A DNA stretch of 64,000 nucleotides from Chloroflexi bacterium GWB2_49_20. GTDB lineage: Bacteria > Chloroflexota > Anaerolineae > Anaerolineales > Villigracilaceae. A program made the translations under genes and the position numbers. Location: positions 1 through 64,000 of the forward strand of contig MGMF01000020.1 in NCBI GenBank assembly GCA_001796335.1, written 5' to 3'. The notes beneath the pieces were generated by a model. The model worked only from the letters and a program-made list of their open reading frames with translations. It was not told the DNA's origin and made no database searches. Positions 2,808-62,238 of this stretch are shown here, in pieces. Position 1 is the stretch's first letter. Each line of letters opens with the position of its first letter.

Positions 2808-3058
2808 TCTGCTCCCAGCAGGGTATGGCCAGCTAAGATTTCAATGCAGACAAAAGATCCAAGAAGAATATATATAGTAATTACCTAAGTCACCTTCCGA
2901 AAAATGTCCCGAAGGTTTAGATAAAAAGCATCCCAGAATTACGTGAATTTTTTGGGGCAGCACGTTACCCAAAATTCGATTAACTGGACGGAAAAGTATG
3001 CAAAGAAGTGAAAGACAGGGTCAAGCATTCACAATAACTGCCACTTTTGGATATACCC

Positions 3059-3086
3059 TTGACTTATTCTCAAACTGTCTTATAAT
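3059..3086 (+). promoter_or_regulatory. Sigma70-type promoter of the ilv-leu unit
   Basis: TTGACT (3059-3064) and a perfect TATAAT (3081-3086) are separated by 16 bp. Initiation near 3093 would leave about 16 nt before the first leader peptide ATG (3109). The stretch from the metA stop (2807) to here has no gene. It holds only small hairpins, such as CTGCT/AGCAG at 2809-2821, with no convincing terminator tail. Confidence 0.8.
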
Positions 3087-3108
3087 CGGACGAAACCTGA
3101 GACAAGCC

Positions 3109-3210
3109 ATGATAACTAATCTTTCAACACTCATCCTTATTACAATTATTTCTGTCCTTATTATTAAGGACAAATTTGTGGTTGGGATGGCACTGGTGAG
3201 AATAAACTAA
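3109..3210 (+). CDS. Branched-chain leader peptide 1 (attenuator)
   Basis: A 33-codon ORF (ATG 3109, TAA 3208-3210) starts just after the ilv promoter. Seventeen of its 33 residues are Ile, Leu or Val (8 Ile, 5 Leu, 4 Val), mostly in a run beginning LSTLILITIISVLII. This is the hallmark of a ribosome-sensed attenuator. Its codons include a 7-bp hairpin (3154-3160 with 3165-3171). GTGGTTGGG (3178-3186, codons for Val-Val-Gly) is perfectly complementary to CCCAACCAC (3238-3246) in the terminator that follows. A longer reading of the same frame starts upstream of the promoter and is not likely to be translated. The ribosome-binding site is weak. Confidence 0.85.
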   Translation: MITNLSTLILITIISVLIIKDKFVVGMALVRIN

Positions 3211-3233
3211 ACTCACCAGCTACAAGAAATTGA

Positions 3234-3259
3234 GCCGCCCAACCACGGGCGGCTTTTTT
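3234..3259 (+). terminator. Attenuator terminator 1 of the ilv-leu unit
   Basis: GCCGCCC (3234-3240) pairs with GGGCGGC (3247-3253) around the loop AACCAC, followed by six T. It lies 24 nt after the stop of leader peptide 1. Part of the left arm plus the loop (3238-3246) can be captured by 3178-3186 in the leader coding region, which would prevent terminator formation. A further hairpin, CTGGTGAG/CTCACCAG, spans the leader stop codon between the two. Confidence 0.92.
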
Positions 3260-3278
3260 GTTAAGAAAGGTAGCCGAG

Positions 3279-3389
3279 ATGAATTTTATACAAATCTTTG
3301 ATATTGTCATTATTCTAATTATTGCCCTCCTTCTTACGAAGGAGAGATCATTAGTGGTTGGGCTGATTAGGATAGTGACTGAAAGATAG
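3279..3389 (+). CDS. Branched-chain leader peptide 2 (attenuator)
   Basis: A second leader ORF of 36 codons (ATG 3279, TAG 3387-3389) begins 19 nt after terminator 1. AGAAAGG (3264-3270) serves as ribosome-binding site. Nineteen of 36 residues are Ile, Leu or Val, concentrated in DIVIILIIALLL. As in leader 1, a 7-bp hairpin sits in the codons (3327-3333 with 3338-3344). It is followed by GTGGTTGGGC (3354-3363, again Val-Val-Gly), which pairs over 10 bp (one G-U) with 3414-3423 in the next terminator. No promoter is visible between the two leaders, so both lie on one transcript. Confidence 0.88.
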   Translation: MNFIQIFDIVIILIIALLLTKERSLVVGLIRIVTER

Positions 3390-3410
3390 GCACACCTGTA
3401 GAAAGAAAAA

Positions 3411-3439
3411 ATCGCCCGACCACATCGGGCGATTTTTTT
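3411..3439 (+). terminator. Attenuator terminator 2 of the ilv-leu unit
   Basis: ATCGCCCGA (3411-3419) pairs with TCGGGCGAT (3425-3433) around CCACA, followed by a run of T through 3439. Flanking A and T runs extend the stem. It sits 21 nt after the stop of leader peptide 2 and 55 nt before ilvD. Its left arm and loop (3414-3423) are complementary to 3354-3363 inside leader 2, which provides the antiterminator. Confidence 0.93.
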
Positions 3440-3494
3440 ATCCCCAGGAATTATCTTCCATCGTTCCGACCAAGGATTGGAGTATATAAGAATT

Positions 3495-5174
3495 ATGCGT
3501 TCTGATACTGTCAAGAAGGGTTTTGATAAAGCACCCCATCGTGCCTTGCTACGCGCTACGGGGTTGAAAGAGGATGATTTTGGAAAGCCGTTTGTGGCAA
3601 TTGTCAATTCGTATGTGGATATCGTACCCGGTCACGTCCATTTGCAGGAGTTTGGCAGGTTGATCAAGGATGCTGTGCGTGCAGCCGGTGGTGTGCCGTT
3701 CGAGTTCAATACCATAGGCGTGGATGATGGTATCGCCATGGGTCACATGGGGATGAAGTATTCCCTTCCATCGCGCGAACTGATCGCCGATTGCGTTGAG
3801 ACCATGATCGAAGCTCACAGGTTTGACGCCATGATCTGCATCCCCAACTGCGACAAGATTGTCCCCGGAATGCTTCTGGCTGCCCTGCGGGTCAACATCC
3901 CGACCATTTTTGTCTCTGGAGGACCTATGGCAGCCGGACGCACTCCCGAAGGCGAAGTAATCGACCTGATCTCTGTTTTTGAAGGCGTCGGCGCTTTCTC
4001 TGCGGGAAAGATCAACGAAGACCGCCTGAATATGCTGGAACGCTTTGCCTGCCCTTCGTGCGGATCATGCTCAGGTATGTTTACAGCCAACTCGATGAAC
4101 TGCCTGATGGAAGTGTTAGGAATGGCGTTGCCTTACAATGGCTCAGCCCTGGCAAAAACCACTGAACGCGAAGCACTTGGACGGAAGGCTGCCGCACAGG
4201 TGCTTAAGTTGCTGGAGCGCGACATCAAGCCACGTGACATTGTAACTGTCGAAGCGATTGATGATGCCTTTGCCTTGGATATGGCCATGGGCGGTTCAAC
4301 CAACACCGTTCTGCACACGCTGGCTCTAGCCAACGAAGCGGGTTTGGACTATCCGTTGACACGTATTAACACTGTGGCCGACAAAGTTCCGTACATTTGC
4401 AAAGTCAGTCCTGCCGGTAAGTGGCACATGGAGGATGTCCATCGAGCAGGTGGTATCCCTGCAATTTTAAACGAAATCCAGCGCAGCACGGGAATGTTGC
4501 ATTTGGACCGCATCACGGTCAGTGGTGTGACCCTGAAGGAATCGATCCAGGGATGCGGTATTCAAGATGAGGATGTTATTCATCGCTACGAAAATGCATA
4601 TTCGCAACGCGGTGGCTTGTCAATTTTGTTCGGAAATCTGGCTCCCAACGGTGCAGTAGTCAAGGTAGGCGGCGTCAGTGAACTCATGATGAAGTTCAGC
4701 GGTCCAGCCCGGATTTATGAATCGCAGGACGATGCGTTAAAAGGCATTCTGGCTGGTAAAGTTAGGCCCGGGGAAGTCGTTGTCATACGCTATGAGGGGC
4801 CAAAGGGTGGACCTGGGATGCAGGAAATGCTCTCACCAACGTCTGCTATCATGGGTCAGGGGCTGGGCGATAATGTGGCACTGATCACCGACGGTCGTTT
4901 TAGCGGCGGGACACGTGGAGCCTGTATCGGCCATGTTTCACCGGAAGCAGCGGCGGGTGGCCCGATTGGCGCAATCAAATCCGGAGATATTATTGACATC
5001 GATTTAACGGAACGCAGCCTCGATGTCCGTTTGAGTGAGACGGAAATTAATCAACGCTTGAGTGAGCTGCCTCCGTTCCAATCCAATATCAAGAGCAAGT
5101 GGTTAAAACGATATTCATACTTTGTAACGTCTGCTGATACAGGTGCGATTTTATCTGTGGACGGTGGAAGGTAA
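3495..5174 (+). CDS. ilvD: Dihydroxy-acid dehydratase (IlvD)
   Basis: A 559-aa enzyme that dehydrates 2,3-dihydroxy-isovalerate and -methylvalerate to the 2-oxo acids of Val and Ile. I chose the ATG at 3495 (protein begins [10 protein letters not shown]) with GGAG at 3479-3482. A TTG at 3477 would add six residues but has no spaced ribosome-binding site. Cluster-binding cysteines are visible in [11 protein letters not shown] (C119) and [19 protein letters not shown]. The N-terminal VPGHVHL replaces the PCN motif of the [2Fe-2S] class and matches the E. coli type, which carries an oxygen-sensitive [4Fe-4S] cluster. It is the first structural gene after the double attenuator. Confidence 0.96.
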
Positions 5175-5239: not shown

Positions 5240-6931
5240 ATGAAATTAAGTGGTGCAGAAATTTTGTGGGAATGCCTGACACGAGAGGGCGTGGATGTAG
5301 TGTTCGGTTACCCTGGTGGTGCAAACATGCCGATCTACGATGCCATGCTCAGCAGTTCAGTGCATCATGTGTTGGTGCGGCACGAACAGGGTGCAGCGCA
5401 CATGGCTGACGGCTACGCTCGTGCATCAGGCAAGGTTGGCGTTGCTATGGCGACCTCCGGCCCTGGAGCGACCAACCTGGTGACCGGCATCGCCACGGCC
5501 ATGATGGACTCTTCTCCAGTGGTATTCATCACCGGACAGGTGCATTCCCGTCTGATCGGCGGGGACGCATTTCAGGAAATCGACGTAACGGGTATCACAC
5601 TTCCGATCACCAAACACAACTACCTGGTGACGCGTGCCGACGAAGTCGCCGAAGTGGTACGGGAAGCCTTCTACATAGCCCGCAGTGGACGCCCCGGTCC
5701 GGTATTGATCGATATCTGTAAGAACGCCCAAATTGAGAAGACTGAATTTATCTATCCTGAAAAAGTCAAACTACCTGGTTACAAGCCGCATTCCCACGCC
5801 CCGAAGGCGGATCTGCAAAGAGCAGTTGAGCTGATCGAAAAAGCCGAACGTCCGGTTATCCTGTGCGGCCATGGCATCATCATGTCTGGGGCAGAAGAAG
5901 TCCTGCACCATTTTGCCGTCAAGACCAACACGCCTGTCACCAGCACATTATTGGGGTTGGGTGCTTTTCCAGCTTCGCATCCACTCAGTTTGGGCTTGAT
6001 GGGCATGCACGGCGAAGCCCATTGCAATCTGGCAATCCAGAAAGCTGACCTTCTTCTGGCCTTCGGGATGAGATTCGATGATCGTGTGACCGGCACACTT
6101 AATACCTATGCACCTGGTGCGAAGAAAATCCAGATCGAGATCGACCCATCAGAACTCCACAAGAATGTACCCGTAGATGTCCCATTATTGGGTAACCTGA
6201 AAACCGTCCTGACAGATTTGATACCAATGGTCGATGAATATGAGCACGAAGAATGGCTAAAAGAGATCGGGGAATGGCAGACATATGGGGAAGCCCTTTC
6301 GATCATGGATTGGCCAGACGATGGGAAATTGTACGTCTCGCATATCATTCACGATCTATGGACTGCCACTGGTGGAGATGCAATTGTCACCACTGACGTC
6401 GGTCAGCACCAGATGTGGACAGCGCAGTACTATTTCCTTGAAAAACCCAACCGCTGGATCACTTCCGGCGGGGCGGGAACGATGGGATTCGGACTACCGT
6501 CAGCCATCGGGGCTTGGTTCGCCCATAAGGAAGATGAAATCTGGACAGTGGCTGGCGATGGCGGCTTCCAAATGACCGCGGCAGAACTGTCCACGGCAGT
6601 GCAGGAAAATGCAAATGTCAAAATTGCCATCATGAACAACAACTTCCTGGGAATGGTGCGTCAGTGGCAGGAATTCTTCTTTGAGAAGCGCTATTCAGCA
6701 GTGAACATAACCAGTCCAGACTTCGTCAAACTGGCCGAAGCACACGGTGTCCCTGCCCGGTGTGTGACCCGGTCCGATGAAGTGCAGGAAGCCATTGAGT
6801 GGGCTCGCAACACCTCCGGTCCGGTTGTGCTTGAATTCAAGGTAGAAAAAGAAGAAACAGTATACCCGATGGTTCCCAGCGGTGCAGCCCTGGACCAGAT
6901 GCTGCGCAGACCCATGAGAGAGATGGTTTAA
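5240..6931 (+). CDS. ilvB: Acetolactate synthase large subunit (IlvB)
   Basis: A 563-aa ThDP-dependent catalytic subunit that condenses pyruvate with pyruvate or 2-oxobutyrate in the first common step of Val/Leu/Ile synthesis. The ThDP-activating glutamate is E49 in VRHEQGAAHMADGYAR. The cofactor motif GDGGFQM starts near residue 438 and continues to MNNNFLGMVRQWQ, where the Trp is typical of biosynthetic, herbicide-binding AHAS. Length is normal. GAGGAGAGATA precedes the ATG. The gene lies 65 bp after ilvD and is paired with ilvN. Confidence 0.96.
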   Translation: MKLSGAEILWECLTREGVDVVFGYPGGANMPIYDAMLSSSVHHVLVRHEQGAAHMADGYARASGKVGVAMATSGPGATNLVTGIATAMMDSSPVVFITGQVHSRLIGGDAFQEIDVTGITLPITKHNYLVTRADEVAEVVREAFYIARSGRPGPVLIDICKNAQIEKTEFIYPEKVKLPGYKPHSHAPKADLQRAVELIEKAERPVILCGHGIIMSGAEEVLHHFAVKTNTPVTSTLLGLGAFPASHPLSLGLMGMHGEAHCNLAIQKADLLLAFGMRFDDRVTGTLNTYAPGAKKIQIEIDPSELHKNVPVDVPLLGNLKTVLTDLIPMVDEYEHEEWLKEIGEWQTYGEALSIMDWPDDGKLYVSHIIHDLWTATGGDAIVTTDVGQHQMWTAQYYFLEKPNRWITSGGAGTMGFGLPSAIGAWFAHKEDEIWTVAGDGGFQMTAAELSTAVQENANVKIAIMNNNFLGMVRQWQEFFFEKRYSAVNITSPDFVKLAEAHGVPARCVTRSDEVQEAIEWARNTSGPVVLEFKVEKEETVYPMVPSGAALDQMLRRPMREMV

Positions 6932-6943
6932 GAACTAGGGTAT

Positions 6944-7012
6944 GAATTTCACTGATTTCACGAAAAAGGATGGATTTATTTTATCTGTGAAGATCCTCTT
7001 ATCAGTGAATTC
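6944..7012 (+). repeat. Inverted repeat between ilvB and ilvN
   Basis: GAATTTCACTGAT (6944-6956) and ATCAGTGAATTC (7001-7012) are complementary apart from one bulged T and enclose 44 nt. It lies in the 111-bp ilvB-ilvN gap with no T-run after it. It is therefore more likely an mRNA-stabilising or processing hairpin than a terminator. Function is not known. Confidence 0.45.
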
Positions 7013-7042
7013 CGTGCAAGAAAAGGAAAATGGAGAAAACAC

Positions 7043-7594
7043 ATGCAATACACATTTATCATCTTAGTTGAAAATAAACCCGGTGTGCTGAACCGTGTGT
7101 CATCGCTTTTCCGCCGCCGAAACTTCAATATCGAGTCGCTAGCGGTCGGGCGGACGGATAATTCCGAAGTTTCATGTATGACCATCGTAGCTGATTGTGC
7201 CAACGACCTGGACGCCCACAAGATCGAAGCCAATCTCTATAAATTGGTAAACGTGATCGATGTGCAGGATGTCACCCACCAGCCAGCGGTGACACGCGAC
7301 CTGGCTCTTATCAAGGTGAGGGCAACGCCAGAACAGCGCGCTCAAGTTAACAACCTGGCAGACATCTTCCGAGCCCGTATCGTGGACGTGGCGGCTGATT
7401 CTGTCATCGTTGAAGCAACAGGTACGGAAGAGAAGATCGAGGGCATGGTTGAACTGCTGCGCCCGATCGGCATTCTCGAAATGGTGCGCACCGGTCAGAT
7501 AGCCATGACGCGCGGCGAACATTCCGGCATCCGCCGTACGCCAGGAGCCAATGGGAATGGGTGGCATGAAGAAGAGTTCGTAGTGGAAGCCTGA
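7043..7594 (+). CDS. ilvN: Acetolactate synthase regulatory subunit (IlvN/IlvH)
   Basis: A 183-aa protein with an N-terminal ACT domain. It opens YTFIILVENKPGVLNRVSSL and has FNIESLAVG, the hallmark of the AHAS small subunit that binds valine and activates or feedback-inhibits IlvB. A C-terminal ALS_ss_C domain follows from about residue 85 (DLALIKVRA). Length is slightly above the common 160-175 aa because of a tail ending NGWHEEEFVVEA. It follows ilvB and precedes ilvC, the classical ilvBNC order. Confidence 0.95.
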   Translation: MQYTFIILVENKPGVLNRVSSLFRRRNFNIESLAVGRTDNSEVSCMTIVADCANDLDAHKIEANLYKLVNVIDVQDVTHQPAVTRDLALIKVRATPEQRAQVNNLADIFRARIVDVAADSVIVEATGTEEKIEGMVELLRPIGILEMVRTGQIAMTRGEHSGIRRTPGANGNGWHEEEFVVEA

Positions 7595-7665
7595 AGCAAA
7601 ATTAAGCTTCTCGCTTTCAAACTGGAAAATGGTAATCGAAACCAATCATTAGGAGAAAAGGACTT

Positions 7666-8724
7666 ATGGCAAAAATCAATTTTGGTGGTGTAGTCGAAAA
7701 TATCGTCACCCGCGAAGAATTTCCACTTGAGAAGGCACGTGAAGTGCTGAAAAATGAAGTTGTAGCCGTGCTCGGTTACGGCGTACAAGGACCTGCCCAA
7801 GCATTGAACATGCGCGACAACGGCATCAAGGTAATTGTCGGTCAGCGCTCAGGCACACCCAGTTGGGATAAGGCCATTGCGGACGGTTGGATTCCTGGCG
7901 AGACACTCTTCTCGGTAGAAGAAGCTGCCGAACGTGGCACAGTCGTGCAATATCTGCTCTCGGATGCCGGTCAACATTCGCAGTGGCCAAAAATAGTCGA
8001 GTGCCTGAACGAAGGCGATATGATCTATTTCTCCCACGGCTTCTCAATCACATACAAGGATCAGACCGGCGTCGTGCCACCACCGCACCTGGACGTTGCC
8101 CTGGTCGCTCCAAAGGGTTCGGGCACCAGCGTTCGCCGCAATTTCCTGGATGGTTCCGGAATTAACGCCAGTTATGCAGTCCACCAGGATGCCACTGGCA
8201 AAGCCGAAGAACGGACGATTGCCCTTGGTATCGCCATTGGTGCGGGTTATCTCTTCCCAACCACCTTTGAAAATGAAGTCTTTTCCGACCTGACTGGCGA
8301 GCGCGGCATCCTGATGGGAGCCCTCGCAGGCGTGATGGAAGCCCAGTACACCGAATTACGCTCACACGGTCACTCCCCATCAGAAGCCTTCAACGAGACC
8401 GTCGAAGAATTGACCCAGTCGCTTATCCGCCTCGTCGCCCAGAACGGTATGGATTGGATGTACGCCAATTGCTCCACCACCGCGCAACGCGGTGCACTCG
8501 ACTGGAAGGACAAATTTCGTGACGCAGTTGCTCCGATTTTCTCTGATTTGTATCAGAGCGTGGTCAGTGGTGAAGAGACCCGCATTGTGCTGGAGAAGAA
8601 CTCCGACCCAAATTATCGTCAGAACCTCGAAAAAGAACTCAAGGTCATGCACGACTCAGAAATGTGGCAGGCAGGCCTGGCGGTACGGTCGTTAAGACCG
8701 GAGAACTGGAAGAAAGAAAATTAG
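7666..8724 (+). CDS. ilvC: Ketol-acid reductoisomerase, eukaryote/Bacteroidota-like type
   Basis: A 352-aa enzyme that isomerises and reduces acetolactate or acetohydroxybutyrate. The NAD(P)-binding motif is GYGVQG (37-42), followed by the cofactor loop VGQRSGTPSWDKA. APKGSGTSVRRNFL, HSPSEAFNETVEELTQ and the C-terminal LRPENW are as in fungal Ilv5 and Bacteroidota enzymes. The usual class I bacterial protein is about 330 aa with a different C-terminal knotted domain. I recall the resemblance from family knowledge and have not computed it. TTAGGAGAAAAGG precedes the ATG. Confidence 0.95.
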   Translation: MAKINFGGVVENIVTREEFPLEKAREVLKNEVVAVLGYGVQGPAQALNMRDNGIKVIVGQRSGTPSWDKAIADGWIPGETLFSVEEAAERGTVVQYLLSDAGQHSQWPKIVECLNEGDMIYFSHGFSITYKDQTGVVPPPHLDVALVAPKGSGTSVRRNFLDGSGINASYAVHQDATGKAEERTIALGIAIGAGYLFPTTFENEVFSDLTGERGILMGALAGVMEAQYTELRSHGHSPSEAFNETVEELTQSLIRLVAQNGMDWMYANCSTTAQRGALDWKDKFRDAVAPIFSDLYQSVVSGEETRIVLEKNSDPNYRQNLEKELKVMHDSEMWQAGLAVRSLRPENWKKEN

Positions 8725-8787
8725 CAAAGAGGAATACGATGATAGTGAGCAGGTTCCGTTTTTTTTAGTAGCCTGCTATGAAACGAG

Positions 8788-10407
8788 ATGAGTATGAGTA
8801 ATTACGTCAAGATCTTCGACACCACTTTAAGAGACGGCGAACAATCCCCCGGTGCGAGCATGACTTCCACTGAGAAGTTGGAATTGGCGCGCAACCTGGC
8901 TCGACTTGGCGTTGACATAATTGAAGCGGGTTTCCCGGCTGCCTCACCCGATGACCTGGAAGCCGTCCGCCTCATAGCGAATGAGGTTGGCAACCCCCCG
9001 TCTGGGGAGGAACAGACACAAGTTCCAGTGATCTGCGGACTGGCACGCGCCACAAGAGGTGATATCGATAAAGCTTGGGAAGCGGTCAAAGGGGCGCAAA
9101 AGCCACGCATCCACACTTTTTTGGCCACATCTGAAATCCATATGAAGCAAAAGCTCAGGATGGACCGTGAACAGGTGGTTGAGCAGGCGGCAGAGATGGT
9201 GGCGTACGCCCGTTCATTATGTGACAATGTAGAGTTTAGTCCCGAGGACGCTGGGCGTTCAGACCCTAATTTTCTATACATTGTTTTGGGAGAGGCTATC
9301 AAAGCGGGTGCGACCACACTCAACATCCCAGACACGGTCGGTTACACCATGCCCGAGGAGTTTGGTGCACTTATTGCAGGTATTATAGCCAACACTTCCG
9401 GAATGAGCGATGAGATCACCATCTCGGTTCATACTCACGATGACCTGGGATTGGCAACAGCTAACGCATTGGCCGGTATTCATGCGGGTGCACGTCAGGC
9501 TGAAGTGACCATTAACGGCATTGGCGAACGGGCGGGAAACACCTCACTTGAGGAAGTTGTCATGGCCCTCAAAACTCGCTTTCCTGTCTATGCTCTGGAA
9601 ACGGGGATTGATACCACTCAGATTTCCCGCCTCAGCAAGCTAGTCAGCAAATTCACGGGTATCCCGGTCCAACCCAACAAAGCGATTGTTGGCGCAAATG
9701 CCTTTACGCACGAGGCAGGCATCCACCAGGACGGAATGCTCAAAAGCAATCAGACCTATGAGATCATGCGACCCGAAGACGTGGGTGTTAACCAGACCCA
9801 GCTGGTGCTTGGTAAGCACTCCGGTCGTCACGCCCTGCGTGTCCGGCTGGCCGAAATGGGCCACGTACTGGATGAAGTCGAACTTGACCAAGCCTTCACC
9901 CGTTTCAAGGAACTGACTGACCGCAAGAAAGTCGCCACTTATGCAGACCTCGAAGCCTTGATAGCTGATGAGTTTTACCAGCCGCTTTCGGTTTACACAC
10001 TGGACGGTTTGCAGGTGACATGCGGAACGATGGGTATGCCAACTGCCACAGTGAGGCTGAAAGGCCCGGACGGAGAGGTTCACACCCAGGCTTCGATAGG
10101 CACCGGCCCGGTTGATGCGACTTATAAGGCTATTAACACCATTGTCAATAAGGGCAACACACTAATTGAATTCAATATCCACGCCATTACAGAAGGCATA
10201 GATGCCCTCGGCGAAGTCACTGTACGCATCCAGGGTAACAACGGCCACCAGTCGATGGATGCCCAAAAAGAACTGTCCTACAGCCGTATCTACAGTGGAC
10301 ACGGCGCCGACACCGACATCATTGTAGCCAGCGCCAAAGCCTACATCAATGCCCTCAATAAGTTGTTTATTTTGCAAACCGAGATGGAAACTGTCCGGAG
10401 TGTCTAA
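8788..10407 (+). CDS. leuA: 2-Isopropylmalate synthase (LeuA)
   Basis: A 539-aa enzyme that condenses acetyl-CoA with 2-oxoisovalerate, the committed step to leucine. The catalytic HMGL-like barrel opens with [13 protein letters not shown] and has [14 protein letters not shown] with the metal-binding His pair. A full C-terminal LeuA regulatory/dimer domain (about 395-530) is present, so leucine feedback inhibition is expected. An ATG six bases downstream (MSNYVKIF) is an equally good start, and neither has a strong ribosome-binding site. A hairpin (8748-8753 with 8772-8777) sits in the short gap after ilvC. Confidence 0.95.
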
Positions 10408-10454
10408 AAAGACTATCTGGCCGAATAACCCAACGTATTCAAGGAGAAATCACC

Positions 10455-10622
10455 ATGAAACCACCGAAAGAAAAAGTTGAAGATGTCCAGGCCCCGATCT
10501 TTGACCCATTTCCTGAACCAAATACCATGCCATCAGGTTGGGATTTGAGCGGGCTTATCCCGGACACGCGGCCATGCTCCCCTTCACCAGCAGAAAATTC
10601 TGCTGCCACAACCACAAAATAA
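10455..10622 (+). CDS. Small proline-rich protein of unknown function
   Basis: A 55-codon ORF between leuA and leuC. Its AAGGAG ribosome-binding site is eight bases before the ATG, stronger than those of its neighbours. The predicted peptide is hydrophilic and rich in Pro, Ser and Glu (KPPKEKVEDVQAPIFDPFPE near the start), with no membrane segment or recognised domain. It lies in the operon with gaps of 47 and 64 bp. It may be a genuine accessory peptide of the isopropylmalate pathway or a chance ORF. I do not recognise the family. Confidence 0.5.
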   Translation: MKPPKEKVEDVQAPIFDPFPEPNTMPSGWDLSGLIPDTRPCSPSPAENSAATTTK

Positions 10623-10686
10623 TCGATAAGAGCATAAAGCGTGAAAAAAATCTTTTCTTTCTTTGCATACATGACTGAAAAAAATT

Positions 10687-12090
10687 ATGGCAAATAACAT
10701 CTTTGAAAAAATCTGGTCTTCGCATGTTGTCAGCCAACAACCCGACTCCCCGGCCATCCTCTATATTGACCTGCACCTCATCCACGAGGTGACCTCGCCT
10801 CAGGCTTTCACCAGCCTCCGCAATCTGGGTCTGAAAGTTCGCCGATCGGACAGAACCTTTGCCACGATAGACCACTCCTCGCCAACACACTCCCCGTCCA
10901 TTCCGATTGCAGACCCCATCGCTGCGGCCCAGATCCGTCAGATGGAAGTCAACGCAGCCGAATTCGGCGTCACACTCTATGGTCTGGACAGTCCAAAACG
11001 TGGCATCGTCCATGTGATCGGCCCTGAATTGGGACTGACCCAACCGGGAATGACCATCGTATGTGGTGACAGCCACACCGCCACACATGGAGCCTTTGGT
11101 GCGCTGGCCTTCGGGATTGGCACTTCTGAAGTCGAGCATGTGTTGGCAACTCAGTGCCTGCTTCAGCGTAAGCCCAAAACCTTCGAAATCCGTGTGGACG
11201 GGAGACTCTCCAAAGGTGTTTCAGCGAAAGACATAATCCTTGCACTAATTGCCAAAATCGGCATCGGCGGAGGAACCGAGCATATCTTCGAGTACACCGG
11301 CGAGGCCATTCGTGCACTATCGATGGAAGAGCGGATGACCATTTGCAATATGTCCATCGAAGGCGGCGCACGCGCCGGGTTGATTGCTCCTGACGAAACC
11401 ACCTTTAAGTATCTGAACGGGCGTGAGTATGTCCCCAAAGGTGCAGATTGGGATGCCGCCCTAGCCCGCTGGAAATCGCTACCCAGTGATGAAGATGCGA
11501 CTTACGATAAATCCATCACTCTGGATGCCTCCAACCTGGGACCGATGATCACTTACGGGACCAACCCTGGTATGGGGATGAAGATCAGCGATCATATCCC
11601 TGACCCAGCATCATACAGCGATCCTTCCCAAAAATCCGCGCTTGAAAAGGCACTCGCTTACATGAACTTACAGCCTGGCCAGGTGTTGCTCGGCAAGAAA
11701 GTGGACGTGGTCTTTATCGGCAGTTGTACCAACTCGCGCATCACAGACTTGCGACAGGCCGCAACCTTACTAAAAGGTCGCAAAGTTGCTGAACAAGTGC
11801 GCGTCATGGTCGTGCCAGGTTCCCAACAGGTTAAGAAGCAAGCTGAGGCTGAAGGTCTTGATAAAATCTTCAAAGAAGCCGGGGCTGACTGGCGTGAACC
11901 AGGCTGCTCAATGTGCCTGGCAATGAATGGGGATCAGCTTGAGCCCGGTCAGTACGCGGTCAGCGCCAGTAACCGCAACTTTGAAGGACGCCAGGGTAAA
12001 GGTGGACGCACCTTCCTGGCTTCACCATTGACCGCCGCCGCCACTGCCATCACAGGCCAGATCACCGACGTACGAACAATTATGCCATGA
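10687..12090 (+). CDS. leuC: 3-Isopropylmalate dehydratase large subunit (LeuC)
   Basis: A 467-aa aconitase-superfamily subunit that, with LeuD, interconverts 2- and 3-isopropylmalate. It has [20 protein letters not shown] near residue 130. The [4Fe-4S] cysteines lie in [13 protein letters not shown] and GCSMCLAMN. Length is normal for the bacterial LeuC (about 465-470 aa). The gene follows the 55-aa ORF, and leuD starts 129 bp later. The gap holds an inverted repeat (ACGGATTGC/GCAATCCGT) that may be a processing hairpin. Confidence 0.96.
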
Positions 12091-12219
12091 GCAATACCGG
12101 CAGAAGCCCGGTTATGTAAATACGGATTGCTATTTACTCATTCAAAAACCGGCTGTATTTGGTGAACCGCAATCCGTTGAAACAATCTTATATTTAACTA
12201 CACGAATTAAGGAATTTTT

Positions 12220-12804
12220 ATGGCTCAATTTACAACACTTACATCCCGCGTAGTTCCACTGCCAATTGAAAATGTGGACACGGATCAGATCATCCCAGCG
12301 CGCTTCTTGAAAGCTACTGACAAAAACGGCATGGGTGATGCCCTGTTCTCCGATTGGCGCTACAGTCCGGACGGCAGTCCCAGGCCAGAGTTCGTGCTTA
12401 ACGATCCCAAATATCAGGGCGCGCAAATTCTCTTGGCCGGAGACAATTTCGGTTGTGGTTCAAGCCGGGAGCACGCTCCCTGGGCGTTGACCGGCTACGG
12501 GTTTCGGGCTGTGATCAGCACTTCCTTCGCTGACATATTTCGTAGCAATGCACTTAAGAACGGCCTCCTACCCATCATCGTCGATGCCGATACACATGCA
12601 GCCATGTTCGATTTAGTGGAAGAAGCTCCGAATGTAAAAATCACTATTAACCTGGAAACGCAAACTGCTACAATGCCTGGCGGATGGACCGTTCCATTCT
12701 CCATTGACATGTTTTCCAGGACCTGCCTGCTCAAAGGCGTGGATTTGTTGGGATATATCATGAGTTTTGAATCAGAAATCGAGGCATACGAAGCAACCCA
12801 TTGA
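12220..12804 (+). CDS. leuD: 3-Isopropylmalate dehydratase small subunit (LeuD)
   Basis: A 194-aa swivelling-domain partner of LeuC. The substrate-binding loop NFGCGSSREHAPWAL is intact, as is the N-terminal VPLPIENVDTDQIIPARFL. Length fits the E. coli-like LeuD of about 200 aa, not the shorter archaeal type. TTAAGGAATTTTT precedes the ATG. It follows leuC and precedes cimA. Confidence 0.96.
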   Translation: MAQFTTLTSRVVPLPIENVDTDQIIPARFLKATDKNGMGDALFSDWRYSPDGSPRPEFVLNDPKYQGAQILLAGDNFGCGSSREHAPWALTGYGFRAVISTSFADIFRSNALKNGLLPIIVDADTHAAMFDLVEEAPNVKITINLETQTATMPGGWTVPFSIDMFSRTCLLKGVDLLGYIMSFESEIEAYEATH

Positions 12805-12880
12805 TCCACGAAGGGCAGCCCGGGACTCTAGGTTGGCTGTTGGTTTTGCACCATGCACTTCGTGACTTCGTAAAAAAATT

Positions 12881-14437
12881 ATGACCATTCAAATTTACGA
12901 CACTACCCTGCGCGACGGTACCCAATCCGAAGGATTTAATCTGTCCAGTAATGACAAGATCCGCATCGCCAGGCGCATCGATGCTCTGGGAGTAACCTTC
13001 ATAGAAGGCGGCTGGCCAGGCTCCAACCCCACGGATGCAGAGTTTTTCGAACGCGCCCGCGATTATGAATGGCAAAACGCCATCATTACCGCTTTCGGCT
13101 CAACCTGCCGGGTTAAAGGCGGTCCAGAGGATGACTCCAACATCCAGGCTTTGCTCAATTCACATACACTGGTTTGCACTATTTTTGGAAAAACCTGGAA
13201 CCTGCATGTAACAGAAGTTCTACATACTACCTTTGAAGATAACCTGCGCATCATCGAGCAGTCGGTTGCCTTCCTCCGTGCCGAATGTCGTCGCGTCATA
13301 TACGACGCCGAGCATTTTTTTCAAGGCTACAAGTCCGACCCATCCTATGCCCTGGAGACATTAAATGCCGCCATCCGGGGTGGGGCTGAGACGGTCGTCC
13401 TGTGTGACACCAACGGTGGGACCATGCCCTGGGAAATGGAACGCATCATCCAGGAGCTGGGTACCAATCTTGCTCACCCGTTCGGAATCCACGCGCATAA
13501 CGATTCTGAATGCGCTGTTATTAACTCGCTGGTTGCTGTGCGTGAAGGGGCGATCCAAGTACAGGGTACGATCAACGGCATTGGTGAACGTTGCGGCAAT
13601 GCCAACCTGTGCTCGATCATCGCCGATCTTGAACTCAAAATGGACAAACGCTGCCTGCCCGAGGGAAAACTGTCCAATCTCTATGAGCTGTCACATTTCA
13701 TCAACGAAGTTGCCAATATCACCCCTGACGAACACCTGCCTTTTGTAGGCAAGTCTGCTTTTGCGCACAAGGGAGGCGTCCACGTGGCGGCCATGCGACG
13801 CTCCGTGCAGTCCTACCAGCACATCAATCCGGAGAAAGTCGGAAACAAAATGCGTGTGGTTGTCTCCGACCTTTCAGGGCGCGGCAACATTATAAGCAAG
13901 GCCGAGGAACACGGGGTGGAAGTGGAAAGCAACACCGATGTGATGACAGTACTTAACGACGTGAAAGAACTTGAAGCACAGGGCTTCTCCTTCGAGGCCG
14001 CCGAAGCATCTGTAGCGATGATGCTCAAGCGCCAGCAGTCCGACTACAAACCTCCATTTGAGCTGGTGGATTTCTCTGTCAACGTCGAACATCGCCAGGG
14101 CCGGGGTATCTTCGCTGAAGCGACTGTCAAAGTCAAGGTGGATGGAGAGATCCTTCACACCGCGGCTGAAGGAAATGGCCCTGTCAATGCTTTAGATATT
14201 GCCCTGCGCAAAGCCCTTCAGCCAATTTACCCTCAACTGGCTTCATTTCAACTTGCAGATTATAAGGTTCGCATACTGGACGGTGAAAATGGTACCCATG
14301 CCATCACACGCGTGCTCATTGATACCCAAAACGGCAACAAGCGCTGGAGCACGGTTGGCGCCAGTGGCAACATCATCGAAGCATCCTGGTGGGCACTAGC
14401 TGATTCGGTGGAATACGGATTGATGGTTGCACATTAA
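12881..14437 (+). CDS. cimA: Citramalate synthase (CimA)
   Basis: A 518-aa HMGL-like enzyme related to LeuA that condenses acetyl-CoA with pyruvate. This gives 2-oxobutyrate for isoleucine without threonine deaminase. It opens YDTTLRDGTQSEGFNLS and contains FIEGGWPGSNPTD, both characteristic of the CimA/LeuA2 subgroup. HAHNDSECAVINSL carries the metal-binding histidines. A C-terminal regulatory domain is present (about 390-515), so feedback control is likely. LeuC, LeuD and LeuB encoded around it also act on the citramalate intermediates, which explains its place in the operon. A leucine-pathway role is less likely because leuA is already present. Confidence 0.93.
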   Translation: MTIQIYDTTLRDGTQSEGFNLSSNDKIRIARRIDALGVTFIEGGWPGSNPTDAEFFERARDYEWQNAIITAFGSTCRVKGGPEDDSNIQALLNSHTLVCTIFGKTWNLHVTEVLHTTFEDNLRIIEQSVAFLRAECRRVIYDAEHFFQGYKSDPSYALETLNAAIRGGAETVVLCDTNGGTMPWEMERIIQELGTNLAHPFGIHAHNDSECAVINSLVAVREGAIQVQGTINGIGERCGNANLCSIIADLELKMDKRCLPEGKLSNLYELSHFINEVANITPDEHLPFVGKSAFAHKGGVHVAAMRRSVQSYQHINPEKVGNKMRVVVSDLSGRGNIISKAEEHGVEVESNTDVMTVLNDVKELEAQGFSFEAAEASVAMMLKRQQSDYKPPFELVDFSVNVEHRQGRGIFAEATVKVKVDGEILHTAAEGNGPVNALDIALRKALQPIYPQLASFQLADYKVRILDGENGTHAITRVLIDTQNGNKRWSTVGASGNIIEASWWALADSVEYGLMVAH

Positions 14438-24800: not shown

Positions 24801-25862
24801 ATGGCATATAAAGGACTTATAGACAAATACAGTTCCCTGCTCGACTTGCCCGCCCACACCCGGCCTGTTAGCTTGCTGGAGGGAAACACTCCGTTAATCC
24901 CGGTCGATCGTCTGTCTCAACAACTCGGTGAAGGCTTTGAGCTGCTGGTCAAATTCGAGGGACTCAACCCAACCGGCTCATTCAAAGACCGTGGCATGAC
25001 TACCGCCATTAGTGAAGCTCTTGGACGCGGTTCAAAAACGGTCATCTGCGCCAGCACTGGCAACACAGCCGCATCTGCAGCTGCCTATGCTTCCCGTGCC
25101 GGATTAAAATCGATTGTCTTGATACCACAAGGTAAAGTTGCCACTGGGAAACTGTCCGGAGCCATTGTCTATGGGGCGCAAGTCATTCAAATTGATGGTT
25201 CATTCGATGATGCGCTGACGATGGTTGTCGAGATTTCAGAAAAGTACCCCATTTGTCTGGTCAATTCCATAAATCCTTACCGCATCGAAGGTCAGAAAAC
25301 CGGCGCGTTCGAGATATGTGATACGCTCGACCACGCCCCCGATTGGCTCTGCTTGCCGGTGGGAAATGCTGGAAATATCACTGCCTATTGGGCTGGTTTT
25401 AAACAATATGATGCCTTGTACGCTACCGGACGTCCACAGATTCTGGGGGTTCAGGCAGCTGGCTCAGCTCCATTAGTCCTGGGGCATCCTGTCGAAAACC
25501 CTGAAACAGTGGCAACAGCCATTCGCATCGGAAAACCAGCCCGTGGAGACGAAGCGCTTGAAACGGCATTGGAATCAAATGGCCGCATTATTGCCGTAAG
25601 TGACGACGAGATCCTTACCATGCAAAAGATGCTCGCTCAATTGGAGGGTCTTTGGGTCGAACCAGCCTCTGCAGCAGGGTTGGCGGGTTTGGCACACGAG
25701 ATCTCGGCTGGGAAATTTTCATTGAAAGGTCAGCGAATCGTCGCCATCTGTACCGGACACGGATTGAAAGACCCGGACATTATTACAAATGCCATGGTAA
25801 AACCGCAAATCATTGCGGCGAAATTAGAAGCCTTGGAATCGGTGATTCAAAGTAGCCTATGA
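24801..25862 (+). CDS. thrC: Threonine synthase (ThrC)
   Basis: A 353-aa fold-type II PLP enzyme that makes threonine from O-phosphohomoserine. The PLP lysine is in NPTGSFKDRGM near residue 60. ICASTGNTAASAAAYASRAG and LPVGNAGNITAYW (phosphate loop) are conserved. Length matches the short archaeal/actinobacterial-like class rather than E. coli ThrC (428 aa). AGGATGATCCC precedes the ATG. A TTGACA at 24713-24718 could be a -35 for a separate promoter, but the -10 is poor. It overlaps thrB by 4 bp. Confidence 0.94.
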   Translation: MAYKGLIDKYSSLLDLPAHTRPVSLLEGNTPLIPVDRLSQQLGEGFELLVKFEGLNPTGSFKDRGMTTAISEALGRGSKTVICASTGNTAASAAAYASRAGLKSIVLIPQGKVATGKLSGAIVYGAQVIQIDGSFDDALTMVVEISEKYPICLVNSINPYRIEGQKTGAFEICDTLDHAPDWLCLPVGNAGNITAYWAGFKQYDALYATGRPQILGVQAAGSAPLVLGHPVENPETVATAIRIGKPARGDEALETALESNGRIIAVSDDEILTMQKMLAQLEGLWVEPASAAGLAGLAHEISAGKFSLKGQRIVAICTGHGLKDPDIITNAMVKPQIIAAKLEALESVIQSSL

Positions 25863-59935: not shown

Positions 59936-60820
59936 ATGAAATTATCAAAAAACCTACGACATATACTTAATCATCCATTAAATAAAACGAGAAAATTCCA
60001 ATCGATCATTCGTTTTATGAAATGGCAAATAGGCAGCAGGCTGGTTCCTGGAGAAGTGATTTGTCCTTGGATAAACAATACCAAACTGATAATTCGACAT
60101 GGCGAAACAGGATTGACCCAAAATCTCTATTGTGGTTTATCAGATTTTTCTGAAATGGGCTATTTATTACATATTTTACGTGATTCTGATTTATTTGTGG
60201 ATATCGGAGCAAATGCTGGAGCCTATACAATTTTGGCATCAGGGGCTATAGGTTGTCGTAGCATCAGTTTTGAGCCAGTCCCATCCGTTAACCATAGGTT
60301 GATGATGAATGTGTTAATAAATGATATAACTGATAAAGTAAATTGTATGAATTATGCCATAGGCGCTGAAGAGGGAGAAATTAGTATTACCAGTAACTTG
60401 GATACGATGAATCATATATCGTCAGATACAAACAAGAATTGTATTCCAGTAAAAATATTTCCATTGGATAGGTTGATGAAGGACGAGTTGCCCAACTTTT
60501 TAAAAATAGATGTGGAAGGTTTCGAAATGAATGTTTTACGAGGGGGGGTGGAGACCTTGAGAAAAGAATCTTTACATTCGATCATTGTTGAAACAAATGG
60601 TAATGGCGAGCGGTATGGGTTTAGTGATGATAATATTCATAATTTATTAACAGTTTTTGGCTTCAAACCGTTTAATTATGATCCATTTAATCGAATTTTG
60701 ACAGAATTAGATTGGGAGAGGCGAAAACCCGGTAATTCTCTCTTTATTAGAAATAGTAATTCCCTTATAGCGCGATTAAAAGAATCTCCGCCTTTTTCCG
60801 TTCATCAGATTAATATATAA
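59936..60820 (+). CDS. FkbM family methyltransferase
   Basis: A 294-aa SAM-dependent methyltransferase. The SAM loop is FVDIGANAGAYTILAS near residue 85. FEPVPSVNHRL and FLKIDVEGFEMNVLRGG are hallmark FkbM motifs. It probably methylates a sugar of the surface polysaccharide. AAGAAAGG precedes the ATG. The stop shares its final A with the next ATG (TAATG), showing coupling. Confidence 0.88.
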   Translation: MKLSKNLRHILNHPLNKTRKFQSIIRFMKWQIGSRLVPGEVICPWINNTKLIIRHGETGLTQNLYCGLSDFSEMGYLLHILRDSDLFVDIGANAGAYTILASGAIGCRSISFEPVPSVNHRLMMNVLINDITDKVNCMNYAIGAEEGEISITSNLDTMNHISSDTNKNCIPVKIFPLDRLMKDELPNFLKIDVEGFEMNVLRGGVETLRKESLHSIIVETNGNGERYGFSDDNIHNLLTVFGFKPFNYDPFNRILTELDWERRKPGNSLFIRNSNSLIARLKESPPFSVHQINI

Positions 60821-62238
60821 TGACCGTTATCTATTTAGTTTTGATTATTGTTTTGTCTCTTCTCTTTGCCCTGGCCATTCAGAGACAAATGAAATATTAC
60901 CCCGCTCTAACACCTGTTACGGGTTGGTTAGCCGGACTTTTTTATTTTATTGTTCTTCCTCTCACTTTAATTATTTTAAACCAGGGCTACGAAAGACCCG
61001 GTTATCCCCAAATAGCTGGTATGTGGGGGAAGATTACCACCAATTCTAATTCCTTTCTGCAGCCTTTTCTTATGGTTTGGTTAACATTGGCGCTGACATA
61101 TTTAACCGTAATTTTTTTTACACCCAGACGTATTGCAAGGAACAAAAAAACTTCCCAAAGCATTGAAAAAGGGATGGTATCTATATTCCAATTAAAAAAG
61201 ATCATCCTTTCCAGTATTTTAATCTCGTTTATTTTTTGGGGAATTAATATCTTTCTTTTGGGGGGCGGTCTGTCAAGCTATTTTTCGCAACATTGGTATT
61301 ACCGTTTTAGCGAATACTCAGAGCAACTTGGGCGAATATTTACTTTATATTTAAAAATCTATTCTGCCAATCAAATAATTCTCACTGCTGCCACTGGTTT
61401 ACTGGTTCTTGCCGCATTAAAAAAGCAATGGAACAAAAATTATGGCTTGCTCGCCTTGGCTTTCCTGACATTACTTCTCCATATGGTAATGAGTGGTAAC
61501 AGGATCTACATAGCCTTGGTATTGATATATTCACTGATGGGGATTTATTATTATTTTGGTTTCAAAACATTATTTAAATCCTCCCTGATCCTGGCGCCCT
61601 TGGGTTTAATTTTTAGTATCTGGGCTTATATACGCAGTAACATCGCAAACCTACCCGTTGCATTAAATAACTACCTCATAATTATTAATCAGGCCTCTTC
61701 TAGAATCATGACAACGCTGATGGATATCACCGAGGGATCAGATAGTATGATGTTGATTAAGGTTATTCAAGAATTTGGAAATACTTATGGTTTTTTATAC
61801 GGTCAAACTTATTTAAGAGCTGTCACCTGGGTCCTGCCTGGAAGTTCTGGTTTACATGTTGATAGTTTTTCAATCGTTTTGGCGAAAATCTACCAACCTG
61901 GTATTCCCAGCAGCATGAGTTCAACCGCACTGGGAGAAATGTGGGCAAATTTTGGTTATTTCTCAATTTTTCTAATGCCAATTTTCACCTTTGTACTGAT
62001 GAGTTTAGGGCATTATATTCAAAAACATATCAATAAGATGGTGCTTTTGAATTCTTACCTTTTTGTTATACTCATTTGGATGGCTCGTTCGGTTTTTGGG
62101 GATAATTTTCAAATACTTATCGTCTCAATCTTAATAATTTGGGGTATGCGTTATGAAAAAAATTTGTATTATCTATCCGAGGGTAACAAAATACATCCTG
62201 CCAGTAGTTCAGGGGATGAGCGAGCATTGCCATCTTGA
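60820..62238 (+). CDS. Wzy-like O-antigen/oligosaccharide polymerase
   Basis: A 472-aa protein with about 11-12 helices and a large loop between them (about 290-380, EGSDSMMLIKVIQEFGNTYG and a Ser/Gly-rich part). This is typical of oligosaccharide repeat-unit polymerases. MSGNRIYIALVLIYSLMG carries the conserved Arg region. Its last 86 bases overlap the following glycosyltransferase in another frame. The C-terminal tail after the last helix is short and polar. Confidence 0.75.
   Translation: MTVIYLVLIIVLSLLFALAIQRQMKYYPALTPVTGWLAGLFYFIVLPLTLIILNQGYERPGYPQIAGMWGKITTNSNSFLQPFLMVWLTLALTYLTVIFFTPRRIARNKKTSQSIEKGMVSIFQLKKIILSSILISFIFWGINIFLLGGGLSSYFSQHWYYRFSEYSEQLGRIFTLYLKIYSANQIILTAATGLLVLAALKKQWNKNYGLLALAFLTLLLHMVMSGNRIYIALVLIYSLMGIYYYFGFKTLFKSSLILAPLGLIFSIWAYIRSNIANLPVALNNYLIIINQASSRIMTTLMDITEGSDSMMLIKVIQEFGNTYGFLYGQTYLRAVTWVLPGSSGLHVDSFSIVLAKIYQPGIPSSMSSTALGEMWANFGYFSIFLMPIFTFVLMSLGHYIQKHINKMVLLNSYLFVILIWMARSVFGDNFQILIVSILIIWGMRYEKNLYYLSEGNKIHPASSSGDERALPS

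Follow-up and report, generated by a model that had tools for sequence, protein, structure and literature searches.

The 64-kb window (the whole stretch of DNA analyzed here) harbors a presumed branched-chain amino acid (BCAA) operon composed of ilvD, ilvB, ilvN, ilvC, leuA, leuC, leuD, and cimA, upstream of which two complete leader-peptide attenuators are present in series on one transcript (Table 1). Each of these two units possesses a short leader open reading frame (ORF), an antiterminator, and an intrinsic terminator; the serial arrangement of two leader ORFs, each with its own terminator, had been proposed in the preliminary description of this DNA. The BCAA operon is adjoined by an ordinary pair of methionine genes, encoding an O-acetylhomoserine sulfhydrylase (positions 491 to 1786) and a MetA-type homoserine O-acetyltransferase (positions 1866 to 2807), and a SAM riboswitch (RF00162; 94.9 bits) is located upstream of this pair at positions 171 to 272. 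Among the matches listed to named Chloroflexi/Anaerolineae MAGs, the closest in terms of IlvD identity were L040 (82%) and L031 and L032 (79%).

Table 1. Features of the tandem leader region and the presumed BCAA operon (positions within the window)
Feature	Coordinates	Strand	Sequence	Details
Promoter	3059..3086	+	TTGACT-16-TATAAT	Consensus matches 11/12
Leader ORF 1	3109..3210	+	MITNLSTLILITIISVLIIKDKFVVGMALVRIN	33 amino acids; I8, L5, V4 (17/33 Ile/Leu/Val)
Region 2 of unit 1 (within ORF 1; 5′ strand of the antiterminator)	3178..3186	+	GTGGTTGGG	Perfect 9-bp complement of 3238-3246
Intrinsic terminator 1	3232..3255	+	GAGCCGCCCAACCACGGGCGGCTT then TTTTGTT	9-bp stem, 7 GC; T tract
Region 3 of unit 1 (within terminator 1)	3238-3246	+	CCCAACCAC	Exact complement of GTGGTTGGG
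Leader ORF 2	3279..3389	+	MNFIQIFDIVIILIIALLLTKERSLVVGLIRIVTER	36 amino acids; I9, L6, V4 (19/36 Ile/Leu/Val)
Region 2 of unit 2 (within ORF 2; 5′ strand of the antiterminator)	3354..3363	+	GTGGTTGGGC	10-bp complement of 3414-3423, one G-U
Intrinsic terminator 2	3406..3438	+	AAAAAATCGCCCGACCACATCGGGCGATTTTTT	GC-rich stem lengthened by A-T pairs; T tract
Region 3 of unit 2 (within terminator 2)	3414-3423	+	GCCCGACCAC	Pairs with GTGGTTGGGC
ilvD (first structural gene)	3495..5174	+		TIGR00110, 825 bits (cut-off, 618)
ilvB, ilvN, ilvC, leuA, leuC, leuD, cimA (rest of presumed operon)	5240..14437	+		NCBIfam match above cut-off for each

Composition of the leader region

Transcription of the leader region is predicted to start at approximately position 3093, downstream of the promoter given in Table 1. 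A consensus scan of the plus strand between positions 2500 and 4000 returned no promoter-like site beyond this one, and within the 90 nt upstream of the ORF 2 start no match exceeded 6/12, in agreement with the earlier claim that no promoter separates the two units. The start codon of ORF 2 is located 23 nt beyond terminator 1. The Ile/Leu/Val counts originally given for the two leader ORFs (17/33 and 19/36) proved exact on recount, and each ORF is indeed followed by its own intrinsic terminator, the boundaries of which differ slightly from those first reported (3234 to 3259 and 3411 to 3439; Table 1). Terminator 1 was found by a consensus scan and a hairpin script alike; terminator 2 was absent from the consensus-scan list and was found by the hairpin script. 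The GTGGTTGGG stretch, which constitutes region 2 of unit 1, occurs in the last third of both ORF 1 and ORF 2.

A unit detector, which requires an Ile/Leu/Val-rich ORF, a terminator-like hairpin, and a complement linking the two, was applied to the entire window. With its antiterminator filter turned off, matches on the plus strand were confined to units 1 and 2, and a single match, with a 6-bp complement, was obtained on the minus strand (25050 to 25142 in reverse-complement coordinates). None of 500 dinucleotide-preserving shuffles of positions 3090 to 3480 produced a unit with an antiterminator of at least 8 bp, and the segments spanning 3094 to 3265 and 3266 to 3450 folded with z scores of −6.5 and −6.1, respectively, equally stable shuffles numbering 0/200 for each.

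The leader region was matched by no Rfam family at the gathering threshold, the best of the leader families being Phe_leader (24.5 bits versus a threshold of 55), with Leu_leader reaching 13.7 bits (threshold, 50) on the minus strand. No T-box was detected at the gathering threshold in the window, nor at an E value of up to 10 between positions 3000 and 3520.

Antiterminator pairing and predicted folding

The unit detector identified 175 units in 165 of 170 ilvD upstream stretches, the window included. An antiterminator complement of at least 7 bp was present in 159 of these 175 units, with one of 6 bp in 14 units and none in 2. Together they represent 97 distinct strand pairs, a figure which includes length variants as well as some pairs which are probably spurious. 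Pairing is maintained even where both strands have changed, as exemplified by GGTTAGG/CCTAACC, GGTTGAGCGG/CCGCTCAACC, GTTTGGGC/GCCCAAAC, and TTTTGATTGG/CCAATCAAAA. The mean score of region 2 was 13.1 against the terminator of its own unit, compared to 10.4 against the terminators of other units and 9.2 for shuffled region 2 sequences; when compared with that of other units, a unit's own region 2 had the higher score 72% of the time (ties being counted against it), and 66% of units outscored all five shuffles of their own region 2.

In an alignment of 45 units, both sides had changed in at least one sequence for 12 of the 15 predicted pairs, comprising 7/9 pairs of the terminator and 5/6 pairs of a hairpin located in the coding sequence. 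The coding part exceeds its shuffled counterparts in structure (mean z of −2.69; n = 158 units), and the hairpin linking regions 2 and 3 does so only weakly (mean z of −0.84), with 38/159 units near the best 5%.

The RNA downstream of the ribosome was folded for every codon position, with the transcript either cut after region 3 or comprising the whole unit. When cut after region 3, unit 1 yielded an antiterminator probability of 1.00 for stalls at codons 1 to 19 and 0.00 from codon 22, and unit 2 yielded 0.99 to 1.00 for codons 6 to 21 and 0.00 from codon 24. Once wholly transcribed, unit 1 was balanced, with an antiterminator probability of up to 0.80 (at codon 13). In wholly transcribed unit 2, terminator 2 was favored at equilibrium for all stall positions (antiterminator probability of ≤0.35), and this unit would therefore have to reach its decision kinetically, before its 3′ arm exists. 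The antiterminator was also favored at equilibrium when unit 1 was cut after region 3 and folded with no ribosome (probability of 1.00), so that the hairpin meant to prevent this pairing would have to form first. Because region 2 of unit 1 ends 21 nt upstream of stop codon 1, a ribosome positioned at this stop codon would leave region 2 uncovered.

With regard to the hallmarks of ribosome-mediated attenuation, the sequence thus places Ile/Leu/Val-rich leader ORFs between a promoter and the operon, together with intrinsic terminators, and an antiterminator which would be freed by stalling and exclude the terminator is indicated by sequence, covariation, and folding, in the case of unit 2 only kinetically.

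Single and double units among relatives

IlvD was searched for in 152 genomes of the host family, 109 of which yielded a match, and in 400 genomes of the order, at least 204 of which did so. A first round of upstream stretches was drawn from 110 chosen ilvD places (30 + 80), representing a subset of the IlvD matches, and a second round from 60 places outside the family, which were the best among the order-level matches listed. At least one unit was present upstream of ilvD in 106/110 and 59/60 of these stretches, respectively (165/170 overall). Two units, one unit, and no unit were observed at 8, 98, and 4 places in the first round and at 2, 57, and 1 places in the second. The tandem arrangement consequently accounts for 10/170 stretches, in addition to a decayed second copy in the sister genome G008 and a tandem in the named record L041; as some rows are near-identical genomes, these tallies represent records rather than events. 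Among the five stretches without a unit, L153, L184, and L229 run off the contig, and L186 and L188 are of a distant IlvD type. For L218, the detector called a wrong ORF and covariance model R1 (see below) gives a unit at 73 bits, and the first leader of L268, which ran off the initial stretch, was later read whole.

Forty-five of these units served as training rows for covariance model R1, including units 1 and 2 of the window themselves (125.7 and 89.9 bits, respectively). Within the host family, tandem units occur in G000, G031, G023, G022, G118, G119, and G120, for which R1 gives the same adjacent pairs, all 14 units being R1 training rows. R1 matched 103 of the 152 family genomes, mostly directly upstream of ilvD, and ten of these were matched twice, namely, the seven tandems, G008 (decayed copy), and G026 and G135, in which the second match is on another contig. 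The matched genomes also include G082, which lacks an IlvD match, and G122, in which the match is on a different contig from ilvD, whose own upstream region runs off the contig. In one set, R1 matched 99/99 sources, 31 of which are training rows, and in a set from outside the family it matched 58/59 (L224 being missed), none of which are training rows. At the level of the class, R1 matched 149/396 genomes. Of 19 class-level or second-contig R1 places, counted without a twentieth that repeats G228, 15 are followed by BCAA genes of the window, with ilvB, ilvD, or leuC first. The R1-type attenuator in L307 (G454) precedes leuC; those in L299 (G026), L300 (G445), L304 (G606), and L306 (G463) have no BCAA gene of the window in the stretch fetched. 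A third R1 match in the window itself, at positions 60820 to 60947, is weak (22 bits; E value of 0.016) and is probably due to chance.

Doubling was also observed outside the family with other leader types, in G054, G195 (units approximately 200 nt apart), and G228. Among the loci listed by a contig scan (at least 80, mostly from distant taxa), 45 were checked with R1 and 61 with the detector. R1 matched L031, L032, L040, L041 (twice), and L055, and the detector matched the same loci plus L072; the Chloroflexi-labeled L035, L036, and L046 among these listed loci gave no match. The leaders of L031, L032, and L040 are identical to those of L167, L168, and L018 and were not recounted. L041 (JAEKNU010000015.1), a Chloroflexi MAG, is new and carries two units (83.7 and 47.2 bits) of another leader type. 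In L291 (G599), two Ile/Leu/Val leaders are located upstream of ilvB (at approximately 248 to 392 and 492 to 640), with R1 matches 126 nt apart; the upstream unit has a GC-rich hairpin without a good T tract and is perhaps a decayed first gate. G599 was left out of the tandem count, as was L269, which has an extra weak R1 match (13.6 bits; E value of 0.5).

In the nine tandem loci scored, the promoter match before unit 2 did not exceed 7/12, and that before unit 1 ranged from 9 to 12. As in the window, it reached 11/12 before unit 1 in L002, L008, L020, L011, L172, L173, and L174, and among 154 single-unit loci, 88 reach 11/12 and 12 reach 12/12. In L172, L173, and L174, the −10 box ends only 10 nt upstream of the first leader ATG, and the first leader may therefore be nearly leaderless. 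No Shine-Dalgarno match was present ahead of 102/154 single-unit leaders and of 5/7 first leaders of the family tandems. AGGA is present ahead of 4/7 second leaders of the family tandems, which is what a need for independent ribosome recruitment by the second leader would predict.

It was considered whether the short ORFs might be chance occurrences or genuine small proteins, with the hairpins representing mere terminators of upstream transcription. Hydrophobic leader-like ORFs do resemble small membrane proteins, but the location of a promoter upstream of unit 1 with none found between the units, the compensatory changes in the antiterminator complementarity, the recurrence of R1 matches before ilvD across the family, and the failure of all 500 shuffles to yield a comparable unit make this explanation extremely improbable.

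Origin and retention of the second unit

Many family members with only one unit carry a leader resembling ORF 1 in it, and orthologs of ORF 2 are found in six further genomes. The seven family second leaders all fit the pattern LLL.[KR]E[RS]..[VL][VI]G, and the first leaders do not. In a tree of 57 units, the seven family second units group together in a single clade (support, 98/95; recovered in 98% of 200 bootstrap trees), which is compatible with a single origin. Another operon from which the second unit might have been derived was sought with R1 over the 152 family genomes and was not found. Fusion of operons as a source of the doubling was rejected, as tandem and single-unit genomes share an identical order of the eight BCAA genes across 21 stretches (window included). 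In this comparison, the stretches of L271 and L275 stop short, additional genes may intervene, and several of the matches were weak (leuA, 31% in L289; ilvC, 33% in L277 and L278).

The preliminary description had held that lack of conservation of the second ORF and its terminator in close relatives would count against it; the second unit and its terminator are, instead, retained in six further family genomes, including G031, which belongs to the same IlvD clade, and are decayed in the close relative G008. The latter genome is the sister of G000 in the IlvD tree, inside a supported clade with G031. Its second unit (L011:3227-3383, minus strand) scores 48.1 bits and has a reduced T tract and a start codon which is out of frame with the Ile/Leu/Val stretch, while a GTGGTTGG stretch remains. 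The single-unit genome G035 (L021) is located inside the tandem IlvD clade of G118 to G120 and, together with the broken unit of G008, points to loss. In G022 (L020), both units are of the G000/G023/G031 type, and its IlvD sisters, G087 and G090, carry a different single leader, which suggests that the control region alone may have been transferred. The doublings in three other families, judged by leader type and family, are apparently independent of that in the host family.

The patchiness of the tandem arrangement and the decay or loss of the second unit in these genomes could be taken to mean that only the first attenuator matters and that the second is a neutral duplication remnant heading to decay. 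Such an account appears unlikely, as seven genomes from five genera have second units in which the reading frame, Ile/Leu/Val content, antiterminator, and terminator are all retained, and as lineages whose leaders differ in sequence (G054, G195, G228, and L041) are doubled as well. Furthermore, the pN/pS of ORF 2 was 0.21 to 0.64 in seven pairwise comparisons (among the four G000-type second leaders plus one further pair), below most of the values for the matching ORF 1 comparisons (0.47 for one pair and 0.66 to 1.03 for the other six), which indicate weak constraint. As the RNA structure constrains some of the same bases, these ratios support, rather than prove, coding constraint on the second leader.

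Proposed mechanism and relation to known systems

Based on the sequence elements, compensatory changes, conservation, and folding models described above, we consider it highly probable that two ribosome-mediated Ile/Leu/Val attenuators act in series between a single promoter and ilvDBNC-leuACD-cimA, forming consecutive gates with AND logic. In each unit, a ribosome would translate the Ile/Leu/Val-rich leader. When the corresponding charged tRNAs are plentiful, the ribosome would arrive at or move past the GTGGTTGGG stretch, the terminator would form, and RNA polymerase would stop. When Ile, Leu, or Val is short, the ribosome is expected to stall within roughly the first 20 leader codons, disrupting the coding-region hairpin around region 2; the freed region 2 would then pair with the 5′ arm of the terminator, allowing transcription to continue. 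RNA polymerase would subsequently reach the second leader, with its own start codon, and the same decision would be repeated.

Because full-length mRNA would require both antitermination events, repression by the two units would multiply and the response would be steeper. Tighter repression, which had been suggested in the preliminary description, follows logically from gates placed in series, and the operon is probably off unless both switches report amino acid shortage. Two gates for one signal may thus provide lower basal expression behind a near-consensus promoter as well as a steeper response. The presence of only one unit in most relatives and the decay of the second unit in G008 are points against the two-gate model as a whole.

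Attenuation by leader peptides is textbook knowledge, and the ilvGMEDA and leuABCD operons of Escherichia coli each possess one leader and one terminator with a mutually exclusive antiterminator. As far as the available text of the cited sources describes them, classical BCAA attenuators (E. coli ilvGMEDA and leuABCD; Corynebacterium ilvBNC, PMC11857589; actinobacterial ilvB, PMC1262725) share with the present locus an Ile/Leu/Val-rich leader ORF and a terminator. The present arrangement, found in Chloroflexota, differs in that it comprises two whole units one after the other and in that the leader codons themselves contain the antiterminator strand. The available part of the actinobacterial ilvB paper makes no mention of a tandem, of two leaders, or of two attenuators (PMC1262725).

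Among published systems, the closest one found is mgtCBR from Salmonella, in which, according to the available text, one leader RNA contains two short ORFs, each of which controls transcription into the coding region, and which the 2012 abstract calls a singular example of tandem attenuators for different signals (PMC3641672). There, however, the signals are different (ATP and proline), their effects add up independently of each other, and the stem-loops are unlike intrinsic terminators (PMC3641672, available text), whereas the two units described here share codons for one set of three amino acids and are each furnished with an intrinsic terminator. A similar division of labor could be envisaged for the present units, with, for example, Ile being sensed by the first and Leu/Val by the second, and the preliminary description had indeed raised a different sensitivity to Ile versus Leu/Val. 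Codon order varies among leader types, and in G118 to G120 the second leader has 2 to 3 Ile, 6 Leu, and 5 Val codons compared to 4 to 6 Ile, 5 Leu, and 6 to 7 Val codons in the first. Nevertheless, the Ile/Leu/Val proportions of the two window leaders are similar (8/5/4 and 9/6/4), and the pooled codon content of first and second leaders is nearly equal: in the codons preceding the stall limit in the seven family pairs, first leaders contain 34 Ile, 33 Leu, and 24 Val among 135 codons, and second leaders contain 28 Ile, 36 Leu, and 18 Val among 134. We therefore regard separate sensing as distinctly unlikely; of the earlier interpretation, the serial attenuators are supported, and the differing sensitivity finds no support in codon content.

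Other two-element leaders resemble the proposed pair of same-signal gates in part, insofar as the available portions of the sources describe them. In the rimP leader of some Gammaproteobacteria, an additional terminator lies in tandem ahead of the first, together with a potential antiterminator, and the pair precedes one gene; no leader ORFs are described there for this terminator pair (PMC2965389), in contrast to the two amino acid-sensing leader peptides predicted here. Two leader peptides also precede the single gene ermB, but they serve erythromycin-induced translational attenuation (PMC8274638) rather than transcription termination in response to amino acid supply. Tandem riboswitches likewise place two RNA switches in series before a gene or operon (PMC5912903), and the SAM/B12 pair of Bacillus clausii metE also has two presumed intrinsic terminators (PMC3641672); in such systems the RNA senses its ligand directly, whereas here the ribosome would be the sensor. 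In 2010, leader-peptide attenuation, ermC apart, had to the knowledge of the authors of the rimP study been shown only in Proteobacteria and Actinobacteria, to which a Firmicutes case was then added (PMC2965389, available text), and the only mention of the Chloroflexi in the available part of a further paper is as a group whose genomes were too few for its statistics (PMC4833913). Among the matches listed from the open-license literature, no report of tandem branched-chain attenuators or of leader-peptide attenuation in Chloroflexota was found.

An Ile/Leu/Val attenuator is present upstream of nearly all examined ilvD genes in an order of the Chloroflexota. Tentatively, and with slightly less than even confidence, we propose that attenuators in this phylum have been doubled repeatedly (in the host family, in G054, G195, and G228, and possibly in the L041 lineage), that the doubled state has been maintained by selection and sometimes lost, and that it serves the entire Ile/Leu/Val operon as an ultrasensitive AND gate with multiplicative action. 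Since single, doubled, and decayed states are available as a natural series, the gain in dynamic range and steepness conferred by a second gate for the same signal becomes a testable question. If this proposal is correct, serial gates responding to one signal would represent a ribosome-based counterpart of tandem riboswitches.
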